Below are positions 4,873 to 17,476 of a stretch of DNA of 26,153 nt, in pieces; the stretch's first letter is position 1; the number at the start of each line of letters is the position of its first letter. The translations under genes and the position numbers were made by a program. The DNA lies in IMG/VR virus record IMGVR_UViG_3300021373_000026, positions 1-26,153 of that record; one strand, given 5' to 3'. The notes under the pieces were generated by a model. The model was not told the DNA's origin, did not search any database, and saw only the letters and a list, made by a program, of their open reading frames with translations. This stretch comes from a virus.

Positions 4873-7800
4873 TTAAACAAAATAAGTAAACGTACCTGTA
4901 AGAGTAGTTGTATCGCTTAAGTCATTAATACCTACATACTCTCTGCTGGCTGTGGCTGATTTTTTAGCCCAAAGATATGCTTTACTATTTCCTTCATAAC
5001 CTTGCAGGCCGACAGAAATAAAGTTTGTACCCATATCTGTGAAGTACATATTACCCATGTGCACTGTTCCGGGTGAACTTGCTAAAGTAAAAGGCAGTCC
5101 AGCAAGCAATATGTATGTATTTGTAAATGTCCCTTCAGCAGTTAATGTTAACTTGAATCTACAGGTAACCTGCCTTCCAATTTTTGTATAAGTGCCAGTT
5201 TGACTAGAATATGTTTGCCCGCTTTGACCTGAATTACCCTCTAAAACAGGAGTCCACGTCCCTTCTTCGTAGTCGTCTAGCTTATTGGCCGCCGCTGTGC
5301 CGCCTAGGTACGCACCGCCTGACAGGTAAAGGTCTTTCCAGCGAACAGCGGGGTGACCTATATCCAAAGTTGCGTCTAACTGCGGGTTAGTGCTTGACGG
5401 GTCAGCAGGCATCATGCTTCTAGTGCTAGGGTTAAAGGTAATGCCAGTAGTGTTAGTTCCTATTCCTACTTGAGTAGATCCATGACCTGAAAAAATACTA
5501 CCGACCCCTGTGCCGTCTTTGTAAAACTCTTGGATAGCTCCGTCGCTTGTCAAACGAGTTGCAACTATTGATGCGCCACCATCTCTGGTAAATCCAGCAA
5601 AACCTCCCGGCTTTATCTCATGTCCAGCAACAGTGAAGTTTGCCGCAGTTTTTCCAACCAACAAGTTGCCAGAACCATCAAAAATACCCCGTGGATTACC
5701 GTCACCATCTGACAAGACGATGTGGTTGTTTGAGGTGCGGATGTCGAGGCCGCCTTGGTTGCCGTTGTAACGGCCAAGGATGGTGTTGTCAGAGCCAGTT
5801 GTAATCGCAGAACCAGCAACATTTCCTACAAACGTGTTTTCTGTTCCTGTAGTAGCGGCTTCACCAGCGCTTGATCCTATAAACGTGTTATTGCCGCCTG
5901 TTGCTGCACTACCCGCACTTTGACCAACAGCCGTGTTGTTTGAGGCAGTGGTGTTTGCGTCTAAAGCAGATTTACCAACTGCGACATTATTACTTCCGGT
6001 GGTGTTAACTTCACCTGCGCTACCACCAACAAAAGTGTTGTTCGTGCCTGTAGTGTTATTTCTACCTGAAGAAGATCCAACGGCAACATTGTACATATCA
6101 ACAGAGCTAGTACTGTTCTGTGATTGCAGTGCAAGCCTACCTACCGCAACACTATGCCTTCCTGTTGTGTCAGTGGTAAGCGCTTGATAGCCAAAAGCCG
6201 TGTTGTAAAACGACGCTACACCTGCGCTAAGAGCTTGCGTTCCGACAGCCGTGTTATCACTTCCAGTTGTAACTGCGTCACCTGCAAGGCCGCCAATGAA
6301 GGTGTTGTATTTGCCCGTAGTTACTGACTTACCCGCTTGGTCACCAACAGCGACGTTATAAACATTTGTAGCAGAGGTAAAGTTTTGCGTGCTAAGAGCT
6401 TCATTACCTATTGCAACAGATGCACTTCCTTGTGTGTCCATTGTCAACGCGGCATAGCCAAGAGCTACGTTATGATCACCTGTTGTCAGGGCGTCAGCGG
6501 CTAAACCACCTACGAAAGTATTTTGAATACCTACGGTTAACTGCTGGCCAGCGTTGTGTCCTACAGCTACGTTGTAAGCGTTGGTAGCAGAAGTAAAGTT
6601 CTGACTGAGCAAAGCCATGCGGCCTACTGCAACTGACTTACTACCTAAAGTATCTCCTGTAAGCGCTTGATATCCTACTGCGGTGTTTTCACTACCTGTA
6701 GTAAGCCCATCACCTGCATAAGCGCCTATTGTTGTGTTCTGAATGCCCGTAGTATTGGCGGCTAACGAAGCATAACCAACAGAAGTATTATTATCTCCTG
6801 TTGTGTTGTTTTGGTTAGCAGAGCGTCCTATTGCCGTGTTGTTGGTGCCGGATGTGTTGTTTAAAAGAGAATACCAACCGAAAGCGGCATTATCTGTTCC
6901 TGTGTTGCTGTACAGAGAGAACTGACCTACCGCAGTGTTGCGCGAACCAGTAGAGTTAAGAGTAAGCGCCGCATAACCTACCGCTACGTTAGCAGTACCC
7001 GTCGTATTGTCACGCAATGCAATAGAGCCTACAGCAACACTATCTCCCGCTGTTGATGTTGTAAGCGCCTGATAGCCAACTGCCGTGTTGTTTGATGCTG
7101 AAGTGTTGGCGTCTAGCGCATAAGTACCAACCGCTACGTTGCTTGTGCCTGTAGTGTTTACACTTAAAGCCAGATGCCCAACAGCTACGTTGTTAGCCGC
7201 TGTAGTGTTTGCATTAAGAGCCGCATAACCTACAGCTGTATTATTCTCTCCTGTTGTAGTTGCTCCTAGAGACGAATAACCTAGAGCCGTGTTGTAGGAA
7301 GCGGTAGTAATTGCGTCACCAGCAAGGCCGCCAATGAGCGTGTTTTGAACGCCTGTGGTTAACTGGTCTCCTGCAAGCGCACCAATAGCAGTGTTATATC
7401 CTGAACCACTAGCATTGTTGTAAAGGCGAAGCGCGTTGAAGCCAATCGCCGTGTTTAACTCAGATCCAACATTTGCACTTAACGAAGCATAACCAACTGC
7501 GGTGTTGCCATCTGCTGTGGTGTTAGCGTCAAGTGCTGTAGCGCCCATAGCAACATTTCTGTCGCCTGTGGTGTTTGCCATCAGCGACTGGTAACCCACA
7601 GCAGTGTTGTTAGAAGCGGTGGTGTTTACTATTAACGCTGAGTAACCAATAGCAGTGTTGTTATTACCTGTCGTGTTATCACGAAGTGCCGCCACGCCAA
7701 ACGCCGAATTTTGTGCACCCGTAGTATTTGAGTACATAGTGGCGTTGGTCGTTCCGGTTAATTGGTTACCGAATGCCGCATTCGCACTACCTGTAGTATT

Positions 7801-10554
7801 TTGACGTAAAACATTTTTACCAAAAGCCGCGTTACCGGAGCCTGTGGTGTTTAAGTACAATGCGAACGCGCCCACGGCAGTAACATCGTTGGCTGTCGTT
7901 GACGATAGTGCGGCCTGATAACCTATAGCTACCGCGTGCTCTGCGGTTGTGAGTGATGTTAGAGCATCTCTACCAACAGCTACATTATAATTACCAGAAG
8001 AGGCCGCATCTAAAGCATAGTTACCTACAGCAACGTTTGATGCCCCTGTCGTAAGAGCAAACCCAGCATTTCTTCCTAAGCTAACATTATTGCTTCCAGT
8101 GGTTAGGCTGTAAGCCGCTTGCAATCCCATAGACGTGTTGTCACCGCCCGATGATTGCGCGTTAAAGCCGCCAGCCGCATAACCAACAGCCGTGTTGTTT
8201 GTGCCTGAAGTAACTTGTCGGCCAGCGCGGTAGCCCATAAATGTGTTGTTACCGCCTGTGGTCAAATATCCCGCTTGCTCACCAACTGCTACGTTTGCCG
8301 CCGCAGTTGTGTTTGAGGCTAATGCGTTTACACCAACTGCTGTATTTGCTCCGCCTGTAGTGTTAGCACCTAATGCGTTTTGACCAACAGCCGTGCCATC
8401 AGTACCTGTAGTGTTGAGTTGAAGTGCCGCAAGGCCTACCGCAACATTATTTGTACCTGTTGTGTTTGAATACAGCGCCTGATGCCCCAAGCCTGTGTTG
8501 CCAGAGGCGGTAGTGTTGGAGAAAAGGGCTTTTTGTCCTACAGCAACGTTGTTTGATCCGCTTGTGTTAAAGCGCATTGCCTCAGTGCCTAAAACCGCGT
8601 TTTGTCCTCCAGACTCATTTACATAAAGACTGGCGTTACCTACTGATACGTTTTCACTTCCAGAAACACCAGCCGAACTAGCGCCACCAAGCGCGAGACG
8701 CCCCACACCAACGTTGATAGTTCCTGTGGTTACGTTATAGCCTGCTTTATGGCCCGCTAGATAGTTATATGATCCAGTAGTGCTAAAACCCGCCTGCATA
8801 CCAATAAAGGTGTTTTCAGTGCCTGCGGTATTTGTGTACCCCGATTGATGACCAAGGGCAGTATTGTTGGAGGCGGTATTAGCCACCAGTGCCTGACGAC
8901 CTACCGCAGTATTTGAAGCGCCAGTAGCATTTGAAGTAAGCGCCGCTTGTCCTACCGCAGTGTTTGAAGCACCTGTCGTGTTTGTTGTAAGCGCCTGATA
9001 GCCCAAGGCAGTGTTGTGGGATGCGGTAGTGTTTGCGTCTAGTGACTGATAACCTAAGGCAACATTATTCGTGCCTGTAGTGTTTACACCTAAAGCAGAC
9101 CTACCAATTGCGACGTTGTTTGATGCAGTGGTATTAGCGTCAAGAGCATCTGCGCCTATGGCTACGTTGCTTCCTCCCGTTGTATTAGCTCGCATTGCGC
9201 TACGACCAAGCGCGACGTTGTTGTTACCTGTTGTTGTTTCTCCAAGCGCACCAACACCAACCGCAGTGTTTTCTTGGCCGGTGGTTAGATCTTGCAATGC
9301 AATATATCCAACCGCGACGTTGTTATCGCCTGTGGTAAGAGACGTTAATGCGGCATCGCCGATAGCTACGTTGTAAGATCCGCCAGACTCAACACTATCT
9401 AGTGCAGTGTTGCCCAGAGCTACGTTAGACGTACCTGTAGGATAGTTACCATCCAGCTTGATTGTGCCGCCGTCTACTGACAGGTTGCCTGCGACGGTGA
9501 TGCCTGTAGAAGTCGCTGTTAAAATAGTAACGCCAGAAGGCTTTAATGAAATATCGCCCGACGCGCTTGATATAGATAAGGCTCCTGACTGCTGGTAAAT
9601 AGTATTACCAGTGTCCGCTCCTGAAATCCTTAAACCATTTAAGTAAGAATATGCGTCAGTAGTTACACCGCCCGTTACGTCGATGCCTGTGGAACTGGTG
9701 TTTAGTTTAGAGGCATTGTCGTGGAACAGAGTCACACCGCCGTTAGGAATAGCATTTATCATGCTGTCTGCCGCACCATTGGCAGTTAGCTGAATTGCCG
9801 CACCATTTGAGTCGATATAAAGATTTCCAGAGCCTGCATCTTTAATCCAACTTTCTGTTCCTGTGTGATAAATCTGTAGGTCAGAGCCAGCACCGAAGAT
9901 AGCCTTGGAAGAATCAGCAAAGGTGATGTCGTCGCCTGACGAGACCGAGATGTCTGTGCCGCCGGTGGTGTTACCGTTAGCCAGAACCTCAGAGAGTTCG
10001 TTGTTAGCACCAACTTGAGAATCTACATACGCCTTGATGGACTGCTGGGTGGCGAGTGCTGTGGCGCTGTCAGACGCCATGTTGTCTTCGTCTTTGATGC
10101 TTGAAACAGTAGCGCCGTCACCATTGAGTGTAAGGCTGTTAATGTTTGTGATGCCTTCTTCGACGTTTGTGCCATCACAAAAGACCACCATGTTCTTGGT
10201 GTTTGGTACAGCAACACCCGTGCCAGAAGACGTTTTGACAGTGATTGTCTGGCCTGTGCCGTTCTCGACAATATAGATCTTAGACGCCGCTGGACAAATG
10301 ACCGTACCTGCACCAGTCAACGCTGTGCCTGTGTCAGTCAGAGTAAGAATTGCCGCACGAGACTCAGAGGTCGTGCCATCGGCAGTGGTTAGTGTGTGGG
10401 AGTTAGCGGTCCACGTATTGATAACTGCGCGGCCTGCGATGGCTTCTTCTACCATCGAAGTGATGTTGTCGTTTACAACATCGCCCCAAGTACCACTAAG
10501 CTCGCCTTGTACGGGAAGCGCTAGTTTAAGTATGCTGGTGTACTGTGTTGCCAT
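4873..10554 (-). CDS. Giant tail fibre with YadA-head-like repeats (1893 aa)
   Basis: This is the largest gene of the window. The N-terminal part (about residues 1-372) begins MATQYTSILKLALPVQGE and contains a short helix, ATQQSIKAYVDSQVG. Beta-rich segments follow (GSDLQIYHTGTESWIKDAGS, SSTGIDVTGGV) of the kind seen in marine phage fibres and probably virion-proximal. Residues about 373-1590 are a long array of 17-residue units of form NxAVGxxALxxNTTGxx. These resemble the head repeats of YadA-type trimeric adhesins, which fold as a left-handed beta roll. The C-terminal 300 residues include LDDYEEGTWTPVLEGN and a lectin-like beta domain ending GTFTYFV, the likely receptor-binding tip. I see no S74 intramolecular chaperone motif. 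A GAGG site precedes the ATG. Confidence 0.9.
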   Translation of the reverse strand: MATQYTSILKLALPVQGELSGTWGDVVNDNITSMVEEAIAGRAVINTWTANSHTLTTADGTTSESRAAILTLTDTGTALTGAGTVICPAASKIYIVENGTGQTITVKTSSGTGVAVPNTKNMVVFCDGTNVEEGITNINSLTLNGDGATVSSIKDEDNMASDSATALATQQSIKAYVDSQVGANNELSEVLANGNTTGGTDISVSSGDDITFADSSKAIFGAGSDLQIYHTGTESWIKDAGSGNLYIDSNGAAIQLTANGAADSMINAIPNGGVTLFHDNASKLNTSSTGIDVTGGVTTDAYSYLNGLRISGADTGNTIYQQSGALSISSASGDISLKPSGVTILTATSTGITVAGNLSVDGGTIKLDGNYPTGTSNVALGNTALDSVESGGSYNVAIGDAALTSLTTGDNNVAVGYIALQDLTTGQENTAVGVGALGETTTGNNNVALGRSAMRANTTGGSNVAIGADALDANTTASNNVAIGRSALGVNTTGTNNVALGYQSLDANTTASHNTALGYQALTTNTTGASNTAVGQAALTSNATGASNTAVGRQALVANTASNNTALGHQSGYTNTAGTENTFIGMQAGFSTTGSYNYLAGHKAGYNVTTGTINVGVGRLALGGASSAGVSGSENVSVGNASLYVNESGGQNAVLGTEAMRFNTSGSNNVAVGQKALFSNTTASGNTGLGHQALYSNTTGTNNVAVGLAALQLNTTGTDGTAVGQNALGANTTGGANTAVGVNALASNTTAAANVAVGEQAGYLTTGGNNTFMGYRAGRQVTSGTNNTAVGYAAGGFNAQSSGGDNTSMGLQAAYSLTTGSNNVSLGRNAGFALTTGASNVAVGNYALDAASSGNYNVAVGRDALTSLTTAEHAVAIGYQAALSSTTANDVTAVGAFALYLNTTGSGNAAFGKNVLRQNTTGSANAAFGNQLTGTTNATMYSNTTGAQNSAFGVAALRDNTTGNNNTAIGYSALIVNTTASNNTAVGYQSLMANTTGDRNVAMGATALDANTTADGNTAVGYASLSANVGSELNTAIGFNALRLYNNASGSGYNTAIGALAGDQLTTGVQNTLIGGLAGDAITTASYNTALGYSSLGATTTGENNTAVGYAALNANTTAANNVAVGHLALSVNTTGTSNVAVGTYALDANTSASNNTAVGYQALTTSTAGDSVAVGSIALRDNTTGTANVAVGYAALTLNSTGSRNTAVGQFSLYSNTGTDNAAFGWYSLLNNTSGTNNTAIGRSANQNNTTGDNNTSVGYASLAANTTGIQNTTIGAYAGDGLTTGSENTAVGYQALTGDTLGSKSVAVGRMALLSQNFTSATNAYNVAVGHNAGQQLTVGIQNTFVGGLAADALTTGDHNVALGYAALTMDTQGSASVAIGNEALSTQNFTSATNVYNVAVGDQAGKSVTTGKYNTFIGGLAGDAVTTGSDNTAVGTQALSAGVASFYNTAFGYQALTTDTTGRHSVAVGRLALQSQNSTSSVDMYNVAVGSSSGRNNTTGTNNTFVGGSAGEVNTTGSNNVAVGKSALDANTTASNNTAVGQSAGSAATGGNNTFIGSSAGEAATTGTENTFVGNVAGSAITTGSDNTILGRYNGNQGGLDIRTSNNHIVLSDGDGNPRGIFDGSGNLLVGKTAANFTVAGHEIKPGGFAGFTRDGGASIVATRLTSDGAIQEFYKDGTGVGSIFSGHGSTQVGIGTNTTGITFNPSTRSMMPADPSSTNPQLDATLDIGHPAVRWKDLYLSGGAYLGGTAAANKLDDYEEGTWTPVLEGNSGQSGQTYSSQTGTYTKIGRQVTCRFKLTLTAEGTFTNTYILLAGLPFTLASSPGTVHMGNMYFTDMGTNFISVGLQGYEGNSKAYLWAKKSATASREYVGINDLSDTTTLTGTFTYFV
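5780..9440 (-). repeat. 51-bp coding repeat array in the fibre, about 70 units
   Basis: The fibre gene holds a near-unbroken array of 51-base units encoding 17 residues, consensus N-[VT]-A-[VIL]-G-x-x-[AS]-L-x-x-N-T-T-G-x-x. From span over unit length I estimate about 70 copies. Units are imperfect at DNA level, with much silent variation, and a few are shorter or longer (TANTASNNTALG, an STTGSYNYLAG unit, and longer units with QNFTSATN). Higher-order similarity is visible: segments with SQNFTSATNAYNVAVG and NTFVGGLAADALTTG return several times, suggesting block duplications. Ends are approximate. Confidence 0.9.
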
Positions 10555-10564
10555 TCTCTTGTCC

Positions 10565-11737
10565 TCAAGCGGCTATATCGTCCCAATTTGGCGTCTGGTC
10601 TGTATCCAGATTACCCCAAGAAGGACTTTGCGTATCTGTAATATCCTGCCAATTTGGGGTCTGTCCTGATGATATATTACCCCAAGTTGGCGTTTGTCCG
10701 TCAGAAATCGCTTGCCAGTCTGGTGTCTGATCCGTAGGTATTTCACCCCAGATAAACACGTTTCCGACTGCACCCGAGGCTTCTACGCCCGTTGGAAGTG
10801 CAGTTGCTCCAGCAGTAACAGTTACTGTACCTAAACTTACGGTACTTTCAACTCCCGTAACTATAACATCAACAACGACCGCAACGTGTACAGTTCCGAT
10901 TGCGCCGGTCGCTTCGAGACCTGACGGGGTTGCAATGGCGTCACCCGTTACAGCAACGGTACCAAGAGACGTAGTAGCTTCTTCTCCTGTAACGCTTACA
11001 TTAGCGTCAGCAACAACAGAAACCGTTCCAAGAGCGCTAGTAGCTTCAAGCCCCGCTGGGGATACATTTGCTGTGCCGGTAACAGTGACAGAACCAAGGC
11101 CAGTAGTGGCTTCAAGTCCTGATGGAGAGACAATAGCGTCACCTGTGGCAACAACCGTGCCAAGCGCCGTCGTACCAGCAACGCCGGTAACTGTGAGGTT
11201 TGCATCGCCTGAAACGCTGACAGTGCCTATTGCACCTGTAGACTCAACGCCGGTTGGAGATACGTTCGCATCACCTGTAACAGTGACAGAACCAAGGGCT
11301 GTGGTAGCTTCTTCTCCTGTGACACTGACATTTGCGTCAGCGGCGACAACGACCGTACCAAGTGCGGATGTAGCAGAAAGACCCGTAACGCTGACATTTG
11401 CATCCGCAGTAACGGTGACGGAGCCTAAAGCAGAAGTACCGGCGACACCGGTAACGCCGACGTTAGCGTCGGCAACAACAAGAACGTTTCCTATACCACC
11501 AGTGGCTTCAAGCCCCGATGGTTGTACTGTAGCCGCACCAGTAACAGTAACATTACCAAGTGCGCCAGTAGCTTCTAATCCAGTAACACTGACATCGGCA
11601 TCAGCGGCGACAACAACGGTGCCAACTGCGCCGGTAGCTCCTACTCCATCGACGCTTACAATGGTGAGATCCGTACCCCAAGAGCCTTGGCCCCAAGCGG
11701 TAGAACCCCACCCTGTATACGTGACAGAGGAAGGCAT
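10565..11737 (-). CDS. Repeat-built virion protein: 14 x 22 aa plus Trp repeats
   Basis: The 390-residue product opens with a Trp-Gly motif (TGWGSTAWGQGSWGT). It then has 14 copies of a 22-residue beta unit (about residues 28-325, form GLEATGALGxVxVxxxAxVxxx) and ends with five copies of an 11-residue Trp unit (WxxIxxxQTPx). The regular two-strand pattern suggests an extended fibre or beta-solenoid, perhaps a trimer. The Trp-rich end may be a docking or sugar-contact strip. It lies just upstream of the giant fibre in transcription order (10 bases apart), so it may connect the fibre to the tail or form a second appendage. The start overlaps the stop of the preceding gene (TAATG). I know no biochemical function for it. 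Confidence 0.85.
   Translation of the reverse strand: MPSSVTYTGWGSTAWGQGSWGTDLTIVSVDGVGATGAVGTVVVAADADVSVTGLEATGALGNVTVTGAATVQPSGLEATGGIGNVLVVADANVGVTGVAGTSALGSVTVTADANVSVTGLSATSALGTVVVAADANVSVTGEEATTALGSVTVTGDANVSPTGVESTGAIGTVSVSGDANLTVTGVAGTTALGTVVATGDAIVSPSGLEATTGLGSVTVTGTANVSPAGLEATSALGTVSVVADANVSVTGEEATTSLGTVAVTGDAIATPSGLEATGAIGTVHVAVVVDVIVTGVESTVSLGTVTVTAGATALPTGVEASGAVGNVFIWGEIPTDQTPDWQAISDGQTPTWGNISSGQTPNWQDITDTQSPSWGNLDTDQTPNWDDIAA
10571..10750 (-). repeat. 11-residue Trp repeat (33 bp), five copies
   Basis: At the 3' end of the 390-residue protein gene, the unit W-x-x-[IL]-x-x-x-Q-[TS]-P-x repeats five times without gaps (WGEIPTDQTPD, WQAISDGQTPT, WGNISSGQTPN, WQDITDTQSPS, WGNLDTDQTPN) and ends in a partial WDDIAA. 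Units alternate WG and WQ starts, which suggests a 66-base double unit, the same length as the 22-residue repeat upstream. Confidence 0.9.
10757..11653 (-). repeat. 22-residue beta repeat (66 bp), 14 copies
   Basis: Fourteen units of the form G-[LVE]-E/A-[AS]-[TG]-x-x-[LIV]-G-x-V-x-V, followed by a nine-residue spacer such as TGDANVSPT or VADANVSVT, fill most of the gene. Two spacer types alternate irregularly: a VTG/ADAN type and one ending in SPSG or QPSG. This suggests growth by unit duplication. The repeat also keeps the opposite strand open for 272 codons, which is a by-product. Ends are approximate. Confidence 0.88.
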
Positions 11738-12175: not shown

Positions 12176-12805
12176 CTAAGTTACAGGTATCTGAGGTTGT
12201 CCTGAACGATAAGTATCGCCGCGAAGTTTACCATCGCCAAGGTTTTTGAGTAACTTCAACGACTGTACATACATGCGCTCGTACATCTGTACGAGGTCTG
12301 GCTCACCTTTCATAAAACGCAAGGCTTCCACCAACGCTCCGTTTAAGAGCGCAGAATCAAACTCTTCGCCTAACCATGTAGTACCCGCCGTTACTATCGA
12401 CTCAGGGTAATACCCGTAGTGAAGCTCCATTGTATACCCGCTATCAGGAGTTGGTCCCACAATAAAGCTATCATCATCAAAGTTAGCGTAGTGTTTAGGC
12501 AATCCTGTAGTAGTCTGTACTGGATACGCTTCACGAATAAAATTCACATCCTTGTTTAACAAGAAATGGTAATTACCGCTACCGTCTACAACCGCTAAAC
12601 TATAGGTATACAGATAATCAGCAGGTGTGGCTAGATATTTATTACTCGCTGTGAGCGTCCCTGTAACGTTTTTACGGAGCGCGGGGATCTGAACAGTGTT
12701 GTAAATTTTCTGTTCAGCCTGTTCTGTGAACATAGCGAGCTGATCATCAGTGAACGTATTTTCAGTGATGTCCTCAATGTTAGTTTTCAGCTCGGTATAG
12801 TTCAT
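12176..12805 (-). CDS. SU10-like head-tail adaptor protein
   Basis: The 209-residue product starts MNYTELKTNIEDITENTFTD, with a helical segment around EQAEQKIYNTVQIPALRK. A beta region follows (LATPADYLYTYSLAVVDGSG, PTPDSGYTMELHYGYYPESI), then a C-terminal helix (ALVEALRFMKGEPDLVQMYE). This order matches the adaptor family described from Escherichia phage SU10, whose copies sit below the portal and receive the tail. There is no strong ribosome site. The ATG lies 3 bases past the stop of the 38-residue gene, so coupled translation is likely. The family call is from pattern memory. Confidence 0.8.
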   Translation of the reverse strand: MNYTELKTNIEDITENTFTDDQLAMFTEQAEQKIYNTVQIPALRKNVTGTLTASNKYLATPADYLYTYSLAVVDGSGNYHFLLNKDVNFIREAYPVQTTTGLPKHYANFDDDSFIVGPTPDSGYTMELHYGYYPESIVTAGTTWLGEEFDSALLNGALVEALRFMKGEPDLVQMYERMYVQSLKLLKNLGDGKLRGDTYRSGQPQIPVT

Positions 12806-12808
12806 GAT

Positions 12809-12925
12809 TTATGCCATAGGACCGCGAGCATAAAGTCCTTTTGTAGCCGCGCCAGTACCACGAACCTTGACTTGCTTGTTCTTGGACTTTGGCTTCTTAG
12901 TAGCTTTTGGTGTTTGCTTACGCAT
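12809..12925 (-). CDS. Lys-rich mini-protein (38 aa) with KVRGxG motif
   Basis: A 38-codon gene fills the gap between the zinc-knuckle gene and the adaptor. ATG at 12925-12923 follows a strong AGGAG site (TAGGAGTGAATACG). The product is MRKQTPKATKKPKSKNKQ followed by VKVRGTGAATKGLYARGPMA. The N-terminal half is a basic tail and the C-terminal half carries a K-V-R-G-x-G-x-A-x-K-G motif that is also at the end of the protein at 14667-14963 (KVRGAGLARKG). It is probably a nucleic-acid-contacting virion peptide, by composition only. Confidence 0.75.
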   Translation of the reverse strand: MRKQTPKATKKPKSKNKQVKVRGTGAATKGLYARGPMA

Positions 12926-12936
12926 CGTATTCACTC

Positions 12937-13248
12937 CTACGAAATCTGAACTACAGCTTGCCCTATAAATCCAGTACCGACAACCGGCTTGACTGGCTCT
13001 ATTAACGCTCTGCTAGCCGCATACTGATTGGAATCAGGACGTGGATCACGTAGCGCTTGTGGGTCATTAACAGGAAACTCCCCCAGCTTTAACTGCGGAT
13101 GGTCTCCATCCCAACACTCAGGGCACGATTTAATGTTTGTATCGCGTCCCTTCTTGTAAACATTACGTAGCTCACGCAGTTTGTACGTAAAGCCACATAC
13201 ATCGCATACGCCGAGCGCTTTCTGACTTGACGCAAATCGATTGCCCAT
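12937..13248 (-). CDS. Zinc-knuckle phage protein (103 aa)
   Basis: The product starts MGNRFASSQKALGVCDVCGF and has two CxxC pairs: CDVC at about 15-18 and CPEC at about 42-45, with a basic stretch (ELRNVYKKGRDTNIK) between. This is a treble-clef or zinc-ribbon style site. The C-terminal half (HPQLKLGEFPVNDPQALRDP) is proline-rich. Small proteins of this type sit among the adaptor genes of many marine phages without assigned function. A GAGG site lies upstream and the ATG directly follows the stop of the gp4-like gene. Structural virion role is inferred from neighbours. Confidence 0.75.
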   Translation of the reverse strand: MGNRFASSQKALGVCDVCGFTYKLRELRNVYKKGRDTNIKSCPECWDGDHPQLKLGEFPVNDPQALRDPRPDSNQYAASRALIEPVKPVVGTGFIGQAVVQIS

Positions 13249-13249
13249 C

Positions 13250-13936
13250 TCAGATCCTCATAGCGCGAGGAACAAAACGAGCTGGTGTTTTTTCTCTATC
13301 TTCCCCCGCCGCTAAAGCAAATTGCTCTTCGTATGCTTGTTTGAGCATAGGCAAGCGTTCAGCAAGCTCCGGCACTTTCATGGCGATGTGGTATGCAAGA
13401 CCTGCGACAAGACATGGGAAAAAGCGGAAGTTCATGTCTGAAGTCTCAGCACCGGCACCGGCGTCTTGAATGCGGCGGAGCCTCCAATAACGGAAGGTAT
13501 AGTCGTTTGTGTCTGGCACAGGCCAAACGTTGATTTTAGGGTTATCTCGTAAGCGTTCTATCCACACTTGAATAGGTCTACCACGCGATAACTTGTTTGG
13601 GATAGATGCGTAGGTACTTACGCTAATACGACTTATCGTAAGGTCAGATTGTGTTGATTGGTTACCTGCACCTGTACGAATTACCTGCTCAAGAAGGTCA
13701 ATGGTGTCTGCTGGCAGATCGTACTCAGACGTACCAGCAACGAGGCTTACGGTGCCTTCATCGATGGTCCACAGGTTGATCCCACGGTTCTGCCACTCAA
13801 TGGTCATCAGGTTCATGGACCGACGTGCAGTACGCAAATCGTATCCAGAGCGCATTTCACGGCCAGCACGCTCCCACGCTTCTTCAGCGATCTCCGTGAA
13901 GTCCATGTTAAATGCGGTAGTACCTGACGTTGCCAT
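13250..13936 (-). CDS. Tail accessory / head-closure protein, P22 gp4-like
   Basis: The 228-residue product opens with a helical domain (FTEIAEEAWERAGREMRSG, then ARRSMNLMTIEWQNRGINLW). A beta section follows (TSEYDLPADTIDLLEQVI, NVWPVPDTNDYTFRYWRLRR), then C-terminal helices ending PARFVPRAMRI. The helical start, with a conserved EW..RGINLW turn, parallels the P22 gp4 tail-accessory family, which binds the portal and closes the head. In marine phages this protein sits near the adaptor gene, as here. Its ATG overlaps the stop of the Lys-rich gene (TAATG). Assignment rests on pattern and context. Confidence 0.75.
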   Translation of the reverse strand: MATSGTTAFNMDFTEIAEEAWERAGREMRSGYDLRTARRSMNLMTIEWQNRGINLWTIDEGTVSLVAGTSEYDLPADTIDLLEQVIRTGAGNQSTQSDLTISRISVSTYASIPNKLSRGRPIQVWIERLRDNPKINVWPVPDTNDYTFRYWRLRRIQDAGAGAETSDMNFRFFPCLVAGLAYHIAMKVPELAERLPMLKQAYEEQFALAAGEDREKTPARFVPRAMRI

Positions 13937-14157
13937 TACTTTTTACTCGCAGATTTCTTCTTGGCTGGAGCTTTTTTCTTAGCTACAGGCTTCTTTTCAA
14001 CGGGTTTTTTAACGCCCATTGCCTCTAGTTTAGCCTCTGCCTGCTCTTTAGTCATCAGGTCATACACAACAGTGACGTATGTACCGTCTGCGTTTTTAGT
14101 ACCTACCTGATAGACCGGCTCTCCCGTAGAAAACTTTCCGTTTTGAAACACTTCCAT
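13936..14157 (-). CDS. Small protein with Lys/Ala/Pro-rich tail (73 aa)
   Basis: The first 50 residues form a small domain (MEVFQNGKFSTGEPVYQVGT, then VTVVYDLMTKEQAEAKLEAM). The rest is a histone-H1-like tail of Lys, Ala and Pro (KKPVAKKKAPAKKKSASKK). Such a tail should bind DNA without sequence preference. The gene has a clear AAGGAG site and is followed by the gp4-like gene with a TAATG overlap. One of several basic small proteins in this block; a packaged or DNA-condensing virion part is a reasonable guess. Confidence 0.72.
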   Translation of the reverse strand: MEVFQNGKFSTGEPVYQVGTKNADGTYVTVVYDLMTKEQAEAKLEAMGVKKPVEKKPVAKKKAPAKKKSASKK

Positions 14158-14168
14158 TGTTTCTCTCC

Positions 14169-14498
14169 TTACGTATACAACGTCTTTTTACGTCTGTTAT
14201 TCATAACAGCACCGCAACCACGAGCTATGGAACGCTTACCACGAGCAAGTCCACCCTCGCGAAACTTTACTTCCGCTTGTTTGGTGTTCTTGACCACAGT
14301 CTTACCTTTCTTGCCTTCCCGCTTCTTCTTTTTAGCTGTCGAAGAACGTTCAGACTTAGATAGGCTTTGGGCCTTACTTCTAGGCAAACATCGATCAGGG
14401 TTCTTTTTGTCTTTAGAAGTGCCGCACTCGCCTTTGATTTCGCCATCAGTACCAATGCGAACCCACTCTTGATCTCGCCACTTCTTCAACTCACCCAT
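14169..14498 (-). CDS. Basic Lys/Arg-rich protein, DUF5872-like start (109 aa)
   Basis: The N-terminus (MGELKKWRDQEWVRIGTDGE, then IKGECGTSKDKKNPDRCLPR) has two Cys in a W..WVRI...CG....RCLP pattern that I associate with DUF5872-type viral proteins. The middle is nearly all Lys, Arg and Ser. The C-terminus is REGGLARGKRSIARGCGAVM followed by NNRRKKT, a motif familiar from other marine phages. Strong positive charge points to DNA or RNA contact. The ATG overlaps the stop of the 55-residue gene (TAATG). Function unknown. Confidence 0.75.
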   Translation of the reverse strand: MGELKKWRDQEWVRIGTDGEIKGECGTSKDKKNPDRCLPRSKAQSLSKSERSSTAKKKKREGKKGKTVVKNTKQAEVKFREGGLARGKRSIARGCGAVMNNRRKKTLYT

Positions 14499-14665
14499 TA
14501 CTTCTTCGCCTTTTTGCCTTTAGCACCCTTAGCATAATTAGGGTCTTTGCAGTATTTAGACGCCGCCATGTTTGCATAAGCAGACGGGTACGTATCAAAG
14601 GTGCGCTTCGCCCACGCCTTACCCTTGGCACATATTTTCCCGCCTGACTTATAGTAACGTCGCAT
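14498..14665 (-). CDS. Basic mini-protein MRRYYKSGG (55 aa)
   Basis: I choose ATG 14665-14663 over an upstream in-frame ATG because it directly follows the stop of the preceding gene (TAAC then ATG). It gives a product starting MRRYYKSGGKICAKGKAWAK, nearly the same start as the protein at 15642-15953 (MRAYYKKGG). The rest has YPSAYANMAASKYCKDPNYA and a Lys-Gly tail (AKGAKGKKAKK), with two Cys. The longer start would add 24 residues overlapping the previous gene. Function unknown; see the mini-protein family among the findings. Confidence 0.75.
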   Translation of the reverse strand: MRRYYKSGGKICAKGKAWAKRTFDTYPSAYANMAASKYCKDPNYAKGAKGKKAKK

Positions 14666-14666
14666 G

Positions 14667-14963
14667 TTATCGCATCTTACAAGGACGTACGCCTTTACGT
14701 GCAAGACCTGCGCCACGAACCTTGCCGCCCTTGGCATAGCCTTTCTTTGTCATACCACCTTTCTTCATAGCTTTACGGGGTGCGGCTGGACCAGTACCTG
14801 TAACAGCATCCATAGCATCGCTACGCTTCTTTTTAGCTTTTTTGGCCTTACCTTTTTTATCAAGCACGCCCCGCCCAATCAGGACATCTTCCTGAGTGAC
14901 TTCGCCATCGCCGCTTAAATCAGGCATTTTGCCGCCGCGCTTATAACCTTTCTTCTTCATCAT
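14667..14963 (-). CDS. Lys/Gly-rich protein with EF-hand-like loop (98 aa)
   Basis: ATG 14963-14961 is chosen because a GGAGG site lies 9 bases upstream; an upstream in-frame ATG at 14993 is possible. The product begins MMKKKGYKRGGKMPDLSGDG and holds a canonical calcium loop, DLSGDGEVTQED (residues 15-26: Asp1, Ser3, Asp5, Gly6 and Asp12 of the loop), like one half of a dockerin. A basic stretch (KKGKAKKAKKKRSDAM) follows, then KKGGMTKKGYAKGGKVRGAG and LARKGVRPCKMR. The start overlaps the end of the upstream gene by 23 bases. Function unknown; it is probably a virion peptide and may bind Ca2+. Confidence 0.75.
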   Translation of the reverse strand: MMKKKGYKRGGKMPDLSGDGEVTQEDVLIGRGVLDKKGKAKKAKKKRSDAMDAVTGTGPAAPRKAMKKGGMTKKGYAKGGKVRGAGLARKGVRPCKMR

Positions 14964-15642
14964 CGTCATCTCCCTCCGCATAGAGATTGTCAAAAACTTG
15001 GTTTACATCTAACGTGTAGTCTAGGTCAGACTTACTGTAATGGATATGCTGAGAAGGCATAAAGTCTGGAGCGCCTTCTCCTAATTCAAACTGTGCTGGA
15101 CGTGTAACGCGAACACGGTTATTTGGCAACGCCACTATGTTTCCTGTCCACTTCCCCGCATCTAACAACTCAAGCACGTGCGCTTGTTTGTGCTGTGCTG
15201 GGTCATCAGCGATATCGGACTCCGTATAGTCCACCGTAAAATAATACTTGGCTGGGTAGAACTTACCGTCAATCTTTGCCATCCACGGGCAAGGGGTACA
15301 GCTATCTAGCACATAAACACTGTGCGTATGTGACGGACAGTCCCACGGTTGAGCCGCCCAAACCGGCATAGGTTCAGGCCACTCTTGAAATGGTGTATCT
15401 CCGACAAGCGCTGTAATCGGCATACGTGCCCACATAGCACCGCCGTGAACGTTAGGCTCATCAGTATCGTCTGTCTCACAGCCAGTAAAAATGACCTGAA
15501 ACGAAAGACAACGCTTAGGTATGGTGGTCACGGCGATTACCATAGCGTGTAAAAACTCACCATGATACGCCGTGTGGTTGTGCGTATATTCCCTACGAAC
15601 CCAACATTTAAAGTACGGTATGTTTGACTGTAGGAACGCCAT
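14941..15642 (-). CDS. Conserved phage protein of unknown function (233 aa)
   Basis: I start at ATG 15642-15640 (MAFLQSNIPYFKCWVRREYT), which overlaps the stop of the DUF6321-type gene as TGATG; a start four codons upstream is less likely. The product is a compact alpha-beta protein rich in aromatic residues, with several Cys and His (EYTHNHTAYHGEFLHAMVI, DSCTPCPWMAKIDGKFYPAK) and a very acidic C-terminus (EGDDDDEEERL). Its first half is recognisable as a protein that recurs in uncultured marine phages, always unnamed. It is flanked by basic mini-proteins, to which its acidic tail could bind. No catalytic motif is evident. Confidence 0.78.
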   Translation of the reverse strand: MAFLQSNIPYFKCWVRREYTHNHTAYHGEFLHAMVIAVTTIPKRCLSFQVIFTGCETDDTDEPNVHGGAMWARMPITALVGDTPFQEWPEPMPVWAAQPWDCPSHTHSVYVLDSCTPCPWMAKIDGKFYPAKYYFTVDYTESDIADDPAQHKQAHVLELLDAGKWTGNIVALPNNRVRVTRPAQFELGEGAPDFMPSQHIHYSKSDLDYTLDVNQVFDNLYAEGDDDDEEERL

Positions 15643-15953
15643 CAGCAGTTCCACTTCCGCAAACTTTTGTTGATGCGGCTGTTAGGGTCATTCGCTGTCT
15701 TTGCGCTAGTGTTGCGCTTCTTCATACCCTTCATGCGGGCACAGAAAGACTTACGCCGTTTAGCGGCCTTAGAGCCTTTCTTTAACTTGCTAGGCTTAGT
15801 CGTTACAGCAGTCTTCAGCTTACTGCCGGGGTTCTCCCGGCGGTAGCTTTCAACCCCTTTCTTGTTAAGCCCGCCTGACTCGCTCTTACCTTCCTTGCGC
15901 GTCCACGCAGGGCTTTTCTTAACCGAGCCGCCTTTCTTGTAGTAAGCCCGCAT
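15642..15953 (-). CDS. DUF6321-type basic phage protein (103 aa)
   Basis: The product starts MRAYYKKGGSVKKSPAWTRK. It then shows the order of the DUF6321 family: GGLNKKGVESYRR, a basic linker, KGSKAAKRRKSFCARMKGMK and a final NKSLRKWNC. The SFCARM and LRKWNC blocks, each with a Cys, are the best conserved parts and could make a disulphide or a zinc site. Highly basic overall. The family occurs in phages and has no known function. Weak ribosome site; it starts 5 bases past the previous stop, which suggests coupling. Confidence 0.85.
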   Translation of the reverse strand: MRAYYKKGGSVKKSPAWTRKEGKSESGGLNKKGVESYRRENPGSKLKTAVTTKPSKLKKGSKAAKRRKSFCARMKGMKKRNTSAKTANDPNSRINKSLRKWNC

Positions 15954-16567: not shown

Positions 16568-17476
16568 TTAAGCTCCGGGCGAACCGAAAATGCCTAATGG
16601 GTCTGACACGCCGAACGAGTAACGCTCACGAGCCTTGTAGCGGCTGTTGCCAGTATCAAAGTCAGCATCCATAGATGTAGACATTGGGGTACGGACAAAG
16701 TGCTTGAGGCCGTTAGGAACGTCAGTCATCAAGAACCAAGCGTCAGTATCAGTCAGGTAATGGTTAACAGTGTAACCCTCTGGGATAGAACCGTTATTGC
16801 GAATCGCATTAAGGTCGTTATCCGCAGTACCCACGCGACCTTCTGTTTCGAGCAAACGAGTTGCAACGAACTGAAGAGCGGGTGGAATTACCAGCTTCTT
16901 AGGCTTGGCGGCGATGAGAAGACCACGCTCGTCTGTCCAACCAGCGATCTGAATAACGGCGGCTTCCAAAGAAGTCTCGTTAAGATCAGCCGCAACAGTT
17001 GGCTCATTCGAGTTGCTACCACCGCTAACCAGTGGGTGATCGGTAGTGCAAAGTGCCTTACCGTCGCCGTAGGTCACACCAGTGTCAAACGCACTATTCA
17101 AGATAGTAGCGGCCTTGACCTGCTTGGTGTACGCCATAGCACGTGCGAGAGCCTTCGTATAACGAGCAGACAAAGAGTCATACAAGTTATCTTCGATAGC
17201 TTCCTCAGTGATTGAGAAGCCCATCGCGATGGTCTCGTGTGTATAGCGAGCAGTCCACGCTTCCTGAGCATTGTCATACTCAATTGCGGCACCTTCGTTT
17301 TTAACAGGTGCGGCTGAGAAGCCTGAGAGCTTGGTCTCTTCCTCAAACGAGCGATCTGAGGTTTCGGTTTCAAAGATTTCGGCGTGCTCTTCGCCGTATT
17401 TTGCGTACTCCATTCCAAACAGAGCGTTCAGTCCGGGAAGGAGTTCCTTAAGTAGCTGGGCGCGTGAAATAGCCAT
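16568..17476 (-). CDS. Major capsid protein candidate, HK97-fold
   Basis: The 302-residue product lies directly after the decoration candidate and two genes past the scaffold candidate, ends at a strong terminator, and has an AAGGAG site. It starts MAISRAQLLKELLPGLNALF and holds a helical stretch around ITEEAIEDNLYDSLSARYTK. A TKQVKAATILNSAFD segment follows and may be the spine helix. Next comes a beta domain with LVIPPALQFVATRLLETEGR and WFLMTDVPNGLKHFVRTPM, and it ends YSFGVSDPLGIFGSPGA. This pattern matches the Mu gpT-like family of major head proteins, which I expect to have the HK97 fold. It would form the icosahedral shell, helped by the scaffold and perhaps host GroEL. Confidence 0.87.
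   Translation of the reverse strand: MAISRAQLLKELLPGLNALFGMEYAKYGEEHAEIFETETSDRSFEEETKLSGFSAAPVKNEGAAIEYDNAQEAWTARYTHETIAMGFSITEEAIEDNLYDSLSARYTKALARAMAYTKQVKAATILNSAFDTGVTYGDGKALCTTDHPLVSGGSNSNEPTVAADLNETSLEAAVIQIAGWTDERGLLIAAKPKKLVIPPALQFVATRLLETEGRVGTADNDLNAIRNNGSIPEGYTVNHYLTDTDAWFLMTDVPNGLKHFVRTPMSTSMDADFDTGNSRYKARERYSFGVSDPLGIFGSPGA

Follow-up and report, generated by a model that had tools for sequence, protein, structure and literature searches.

The 26 kb virus record IMGVR_UViG_3300021373_000026 (the window; 26,153 nucleotides), which derives from a marine phage, holds six small genes for strongly basic proteins across the interval between the major capsid gene and the gene of a 209-residue protein (Table 1). 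It is most likely that this basic set is packaged with the viral DNA and is not a random collection of small genes. We hypothesize, with moderate confidence, that a38, c109, d55, e98 and f103 are late, virion-packaged, head-internal and DNA-associated mini-proteins with exchangeable docking signals. The virion association of the core domains of c109, d55 and f103, here called A, B and C, respectively, is well supported through homologous sequences, from which the window phage's own proteins would also be expected in its virions. Their location is probably inside the head, bound to DNA; contact with the DNA, a role for their shared leader and tail segments, and ejection are what we infer from the analysis as a whole.

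In the proposed mechanism, c109, d55, f103, e98 and a38 would be made late, beside capsid and neck genes, and would enter the head during assembly, where their lysine- and arginine-rich surface would rest against the packaged DNA, and they may exit the head together with it. The nine-residue leader MRxYYKxGG, and perhaps the RGxGxA tail too, would serve as exchangeable docking signals bringing unrelated cores to the same place, in the way that the capsid targeting sequence of T4 serves internal proteins IPI-IPIII. T4-like cyanophages could achieve the same by means of one or two longer proteins with the same cores.

The virion link comes from two cyanophages with published proteomes. S-CREM2 gp137 (four peptides) and gp160 (seven peptides) belong to the virion proteome of particles purified in caesium chloride (PMC10665884 Table 3), and we find domain C in gp137 and A plus B in gp160. 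For S-SCSM1, 45 virion proteins were identified by mass spectrometry (PMC9602691); its gp29 contains A (residues 79-147), B (217-250) and C (438-517), in that order, and bears the label "virion protein" in its record. Whole-genome scans of both phages recovered no other open reading frames (ORFs) with A, B or C. The virion peptides proposed by the first-pass annotation thus have support from homology, with 3 of 3 such ORFs reported from purified virions. With 52 of ~219 and 45 of 282 ORFs detected, random detection of all three would have a probability of about 1 in 100; this is a rough estimate, as it takes no account of the bias towards structural regions.

The six basic genes are genuine, and their products are the only strongly basic ones of the window. 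They lie on the minus strand with the positions, lengths and motifs that the first-pass annotation had reported; each starts with ATG, and several overlap or abut neighbouring genes. Net charges range from +8 to +28 (+11 to +32 per 100 residues), against -14 to +9 per 100 residues in the remaining 24 coding sequences checked. Ratios of nonsynonymous to synonymous change (pN/pS) relative to homologues are 0.27 for a38, 0.25 for b73, 0.25 for c109, 0.10 for d55 and 0.19 for f103, close to the 0.22 of the head-tail adaptor, with synonymous sites near saturation and e98 left out for having too few alignable pairs. Homologues of a38 occur in 26 of 80 contigs selected by the major capsid protein, mostly between the genes of a conserved 103-residue protein and the 209-residue protein. 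For b73 there is a weak Pfam match (E 0.0057, below cut-off).

The co-occurrence in related genomes on which the first-pass annotation had staked its proposal is strong. Among 80 contigs picked by B, A is found in 79 and C in 47; among 77 picked by A, B is found in 72 and C in 46. Control contigs drawn with a random 15-mer contain A, B or C in 0 of 23 viral cases. These counts are inflated, since one broad capsid lineage accounts for most of the contigs. Of 182 loci, 163 have A and B on one strand and no more than 150 bp apart. Outside the capsid lineage, T7-like phages (P-SCSP2, L240) carry the same set between scaffold and capsid, and T4-like cyanophages have the three cores joined within longer proteins: A+B+C in S-CAM9 by hidden Markov model (HMM), and B+C by HMM in S-SM1 and S-RIM2, where A is seen only by eye in the translation.

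The first-pass annotation was right about a DUF6321-like member, which is the MRAYYKKGG protein f103: it covers the full Pfam model (1-72 of 72) at 68.5 bits, against a cut-off of 28.5. DUF6321 is present in 502 of 50,697 phage records, mostly cyanophages, and we found no mention or functional account of it in the literature searched. In longer cyanophage proteins it is often the C-terminal part, whereas f103 stands alone behind its YYKKGG leader. The PHROG families of c109 and d55 (23735 and 27331) are both annotated as function unknown. Two cysteines are invariant in domain A (30 of 30 sequences) and in domain C (49 of 49); in domain B one cysteine is aligned in 25 of 25, and the position of the second is shifted between its two subtypes. 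The AlphaFold2 model of the f103 domain C is helical, with a predicted local distance difference test (pLDDT) score of 85, and that of domain A is of low confidence (pLDDT 68). Profiles of A, B and C gave no usable match to PDB sequences.

Profile-profile comparison showed the A, B and C cores to be unrelated, and a single family arising through duplication was rejected on this basis. The single family of mini-proteins of the first-pass annotation was not borne out, since only the leader and tail are common to its members. A different relation concerns Pfam DUF5872 (PF19197), which does not match c109 itself at E 1. Pelagiphage homologues of c109 reach E 5e-4 and 0.0018, below cut-off, and the homologues from L044 and P-SCSP2, tied to c109 by the same HMM family and the same gene neighbourhood, pass the gathering score (53.3 bits vs 27.5, E 5e-14). 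A proteins match positions 46-112 of the model (E 5e-14) and B proteins positions 1-44 (E 0.001-0.002), so DUF5872 seems to represent a fusion of B and A. This family was reported in an algal giant virus (PMC12085832).

The same ends, MRxYYKxGG at the N-terminus and RGxGxA towards the C-terminus, are attached to these unrelated cores. We scanned 6,618 small ORFs near A/B/C genes against shuffled sequences; they were drawn from related contigs, and the counts are not independent events. The leader pattern M..YY[KRSG] occurred 71 times, against 8.3 in shuffles, with 32 cases on B, 26 on C, 6 on A and 7 elsewhere (64 of 71 on A, B or C). The tail pattern [KRVIA]RGxGx[AV], within 35 residues of the C-terminus, occurred 141 times, against 3.4, on A, B, a38-type, e98-type and further proteins, its RGxG mostly lying 10-30 residues before the end. 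Of the duplication and shuffling of a short basic module suggested by the first-pass annotation, the shuffling is supported, for the leader among A, B and C and for the tail among A, B, e98-type and a38-type proteins; the duplication is not supported for the cores. The two window leaders, of f103 and d55, are encoded by different synonymous codons, which argues for selection on the leader peptide. In some e98-like proteins the same tail follows another N-terminal part, an SRAQH region that matches PHROGs with a virion structural annotation; this again shows tail reuse. One SRAQH-type domain of this kind (L101, 5425-5841; PHROG virion structural protein, also present in phiKZ-size Pseudomonas phages) is followed by a KVRGAGCAKKGVRPCKMM tail. 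A segment like TGFTGAAAPEGPVAGYDPLM recurs in cyanophage virion proteins, namely S-CREM2 gp160 (residues 17-70; L088, 36343-37236), where the surrounding stretch matches PHROG 696 (major head protein), and S-SCSM1 gp97 (L278, 8122-8307); it is possibly another shared packaging segment.

Among the closest known parallels are the internal proteins of T4: small and basic, with N-terminal targeting leaders of 10-19 residues, each of them numbers about 360 copies and undergoes ejection (PMC9026906). Like IPI, IPII and IPIII, the window set comprises a number of small basic proteins that are expressed together with head genes and bear a common short N-terminal leader (PMC9026906), here on the otherwise unrelated A, B and C proteins. 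The head-internal, DNA-associated reading is favoured because the proteins are small and strongly positive, are encoded among head and neck genes and have a leader common to unrelated cores, all of which fits this logic. There are differences: gp21 cleaves off the T4 leader, whereas the window leaders are known from sequence; the window set also has a common C-terminal tail; and its cores turn up again in phage groups that are unrelated, as well as in fused form. Virion presence was seen for fused homologues in two cyanophages, the window proteins being known from their genes. Small genome-condensing proteins of eukaryotic double-stranded DNA viruses, baculovirus P6.9 and ascovirus P64, are likewise strongly basic virion proteins (PMC6163548), but they are rich in arginine and serine and we found no sequence relation to them; DNA condensation was demonstrated for P64, to which the window proteins are likened by charge.

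Several observations weigh against our interpretation. The mass spectrometry concerns fused homologues of a distant phage group and not the window proteins; S-CREM2 gp137 is acidic overall (isoelectric point 5.0), and its four peptides possibly lie outside its DUF6321 part; S-SCSM1 ORF29 is unnamed in PMC9602691, the link being the label in its record. In Pfam and PHROG scans neither T4 internal proteins nor any other known internal-protein family was matched, only families of unknown function, and a Foldseek search of the DUF6321 model against PDB gave no fold match. Prohead-protease sites in the linkers of the fused proteins number 31, vs 15.9 in shuffled sequences, but one acidic protein drives the excess and P-SSM4 lacks it. 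Finally, many relatives keep a core without the leader (e.g., DUF6321 proteins starting MAKSPAW), and since cores outside the lineage often lack it, the leader seems to be a lineage habit, not a requirement.

The main rival is that the proteins are virion components of a structural kind, binding capsid, portal or neck proteins as assembly or cement factors, with a charge that serves protein contacts and not DNA. The location of the genes between capsid and adaptor, or between scaffold and capsid, would suit such a role, as would the confidently helical prediction for domain C and the fused homologues of P-HM1 and S-SM1 that adjoin terminase genes. We nevertheless consider it unlikely, although worth keeping in mind: all six proteins are strongly positive, and the shell of P-SCSP1u consists, by cryo-electron microscopy, of the major capsid protein only, with no decoration proteins (PMC10575957). 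In its relative P-SCSP1g, from which the gene is known, DUF6321 directly follows the capsid gene, and the two observations together disfavour an ordered shell component.

The head may also be only a carrier, with the proteins acting in the cell, after delivery or expression there, to block defence or to coat DNA of host or phage. T4 IPI is a precedent (PMC9026906), and the extent to which the ends are shuffled is reminiscent of fast-evolving effector sets; however, the cores are conserved (as in the pN/pS of B) and common to phages of very different hosts, unlike typical anti-defence genes, which makes host takeover improbable, in an analysis where no search was aimed at defence or counter-defence libraries. 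Assembly-time or regulatory proteins absent from the mature particle, such as terminase or scaffold helpers, would fit genes that adjoin terminase in T4-like cyanophages and scaffold in T7-like phages, but are very improbable given that every homologous ORF of both genomes checked is reported from purified virions.

Table 1. Features of the window that bear on the basic gene set.
Feature	Position	Strand	Evidence or remarks
209-residue protein (gp209)	12176-12805	-	
a38, 38-residue basic protein, net +12	12809..12925	-	
a38 C-terminal tail KVRGTGAATKG	12836..12868	-	sequence; tail statistics
head-tail adaptor (SU10_adaptor)	13250..13936	-	Pfam PF24175 E 4.9e-14
b73, 73-residue protein, H1-like Lys/Pro/Ala-rich C-terminus	13936..14157	-	without leader or tail
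c109, domain A protein, 109 residues, net +21	14169..14498	-	PHROG 23735 E 1.4e-25
c109 C-terminal tail ARGCGAVMNNRRKK	14184..14225	-	tail type common to A proteins and some B proteins (L015, L107)
domain A of c109	14259..14492	-	HMM
d55, domain B (YPSAYA) protein, 55 residues, net +14	14498..14665	-	PHROG 27331 E 1.5e-26
d55 leader MRRYYKSGG	14639..14665	-	
e98, 98-residue protein, net +22	14667..14963	-	GYKRGG near N-terminus, KVRGAGLARKG tail
e98 C-terminal tail KVRGAGLARKG	14691..14723	-	tail statistics
e98 DLSGDGEVTQED loop, resembling EF-hand/dockerin calcium loop	14886..14921	-	inference
e98 GYKRGGK motif	14928..14948	-	
acidic 233-residue protein, net -19	14941..15642	-	between f103 and e98; PHROG 3704 E 2.4e-26
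f103, domain C (DUF6321) protein, 103 residues, net +28	15642..15953	-	Pfam PF19846 E 7.7e-19
f103 leader MRAYYKKGG	15927..15953	-	
major capsid protein	16568..17476	-	PHROG 371 E 8e-23

Coding in the window is almost wholly on the minus strand and comprises terminase, portal, a GroES-like gene, a scaffold-like gene, major capsid protein, adaptor and tail genes. The capsid protein has its nearest match in Planktothrix phage Pag-Yong1 (71% identical), with DSL-LC04 and pelagiphages HTVC023P and HTVC027P also close; in HTVC027P, gp49 is the B protein, gp50 the A protein and gp52 the C protein. The six basic genes are interrupted by the adaptor, a cysteine-rich 103-residue protein and the acidic 233-residue protein. 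The latter is a possible partner of the basic proteins, and in HTVC033P its homologue adjoins the small basic cluster; the label "ferredoxin" of its PHROG looks doubtful. The 103-residue protein (zn103; 12937-13248, minus strand), conserved and located between the adaptor and a38, shows a CxxC...CPxC pattern that could be a zinc site. Further along the same strand are a 390-residue repeat protein (10565-11737; net -35, lysine plus arginine fraction < 0.005) and a 1893-residue tail-region protein (4873-10554) whose many NTAVGYxAL-type repeats look like the heads of YadA-like trimeric adhesins.

Regarding the calcium-type loop of e98, an EF-hand assignment was rejected, as e98 itself has no direct Pfam match; a mini-protein of P-SCSP2, placed similarly to e98, reaches EF-hand_5 at E 9e-6, just short of cut-off. 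Mini-proteins with EF-hand-like loops adjoin A and B genes in L095 (5174-5299) and L086 (16361-16726), with EF-hand_5 at E 9e-6 and 5e-4.

On a broader scale, we consider tentatively, and as rather unlikely, that three unrelated cysteine-bearing cores with an exchangeable leader and tail form a portable kit passed among short-tailed and T4-like marine phages, with A and B common to algal giant viruses (DUF5872); in this view the kit would serve generally in packing and delivering DNA, and its leader would be a new capsid-targeting signal. Together with a leader that can be swapped, the virion link and the A-B-C fusions provide a shared and testable role for three functionally uncharacterized families found in some of the most abundant ocean phages, and they point to a new short signal that would load proteins into phage heads.

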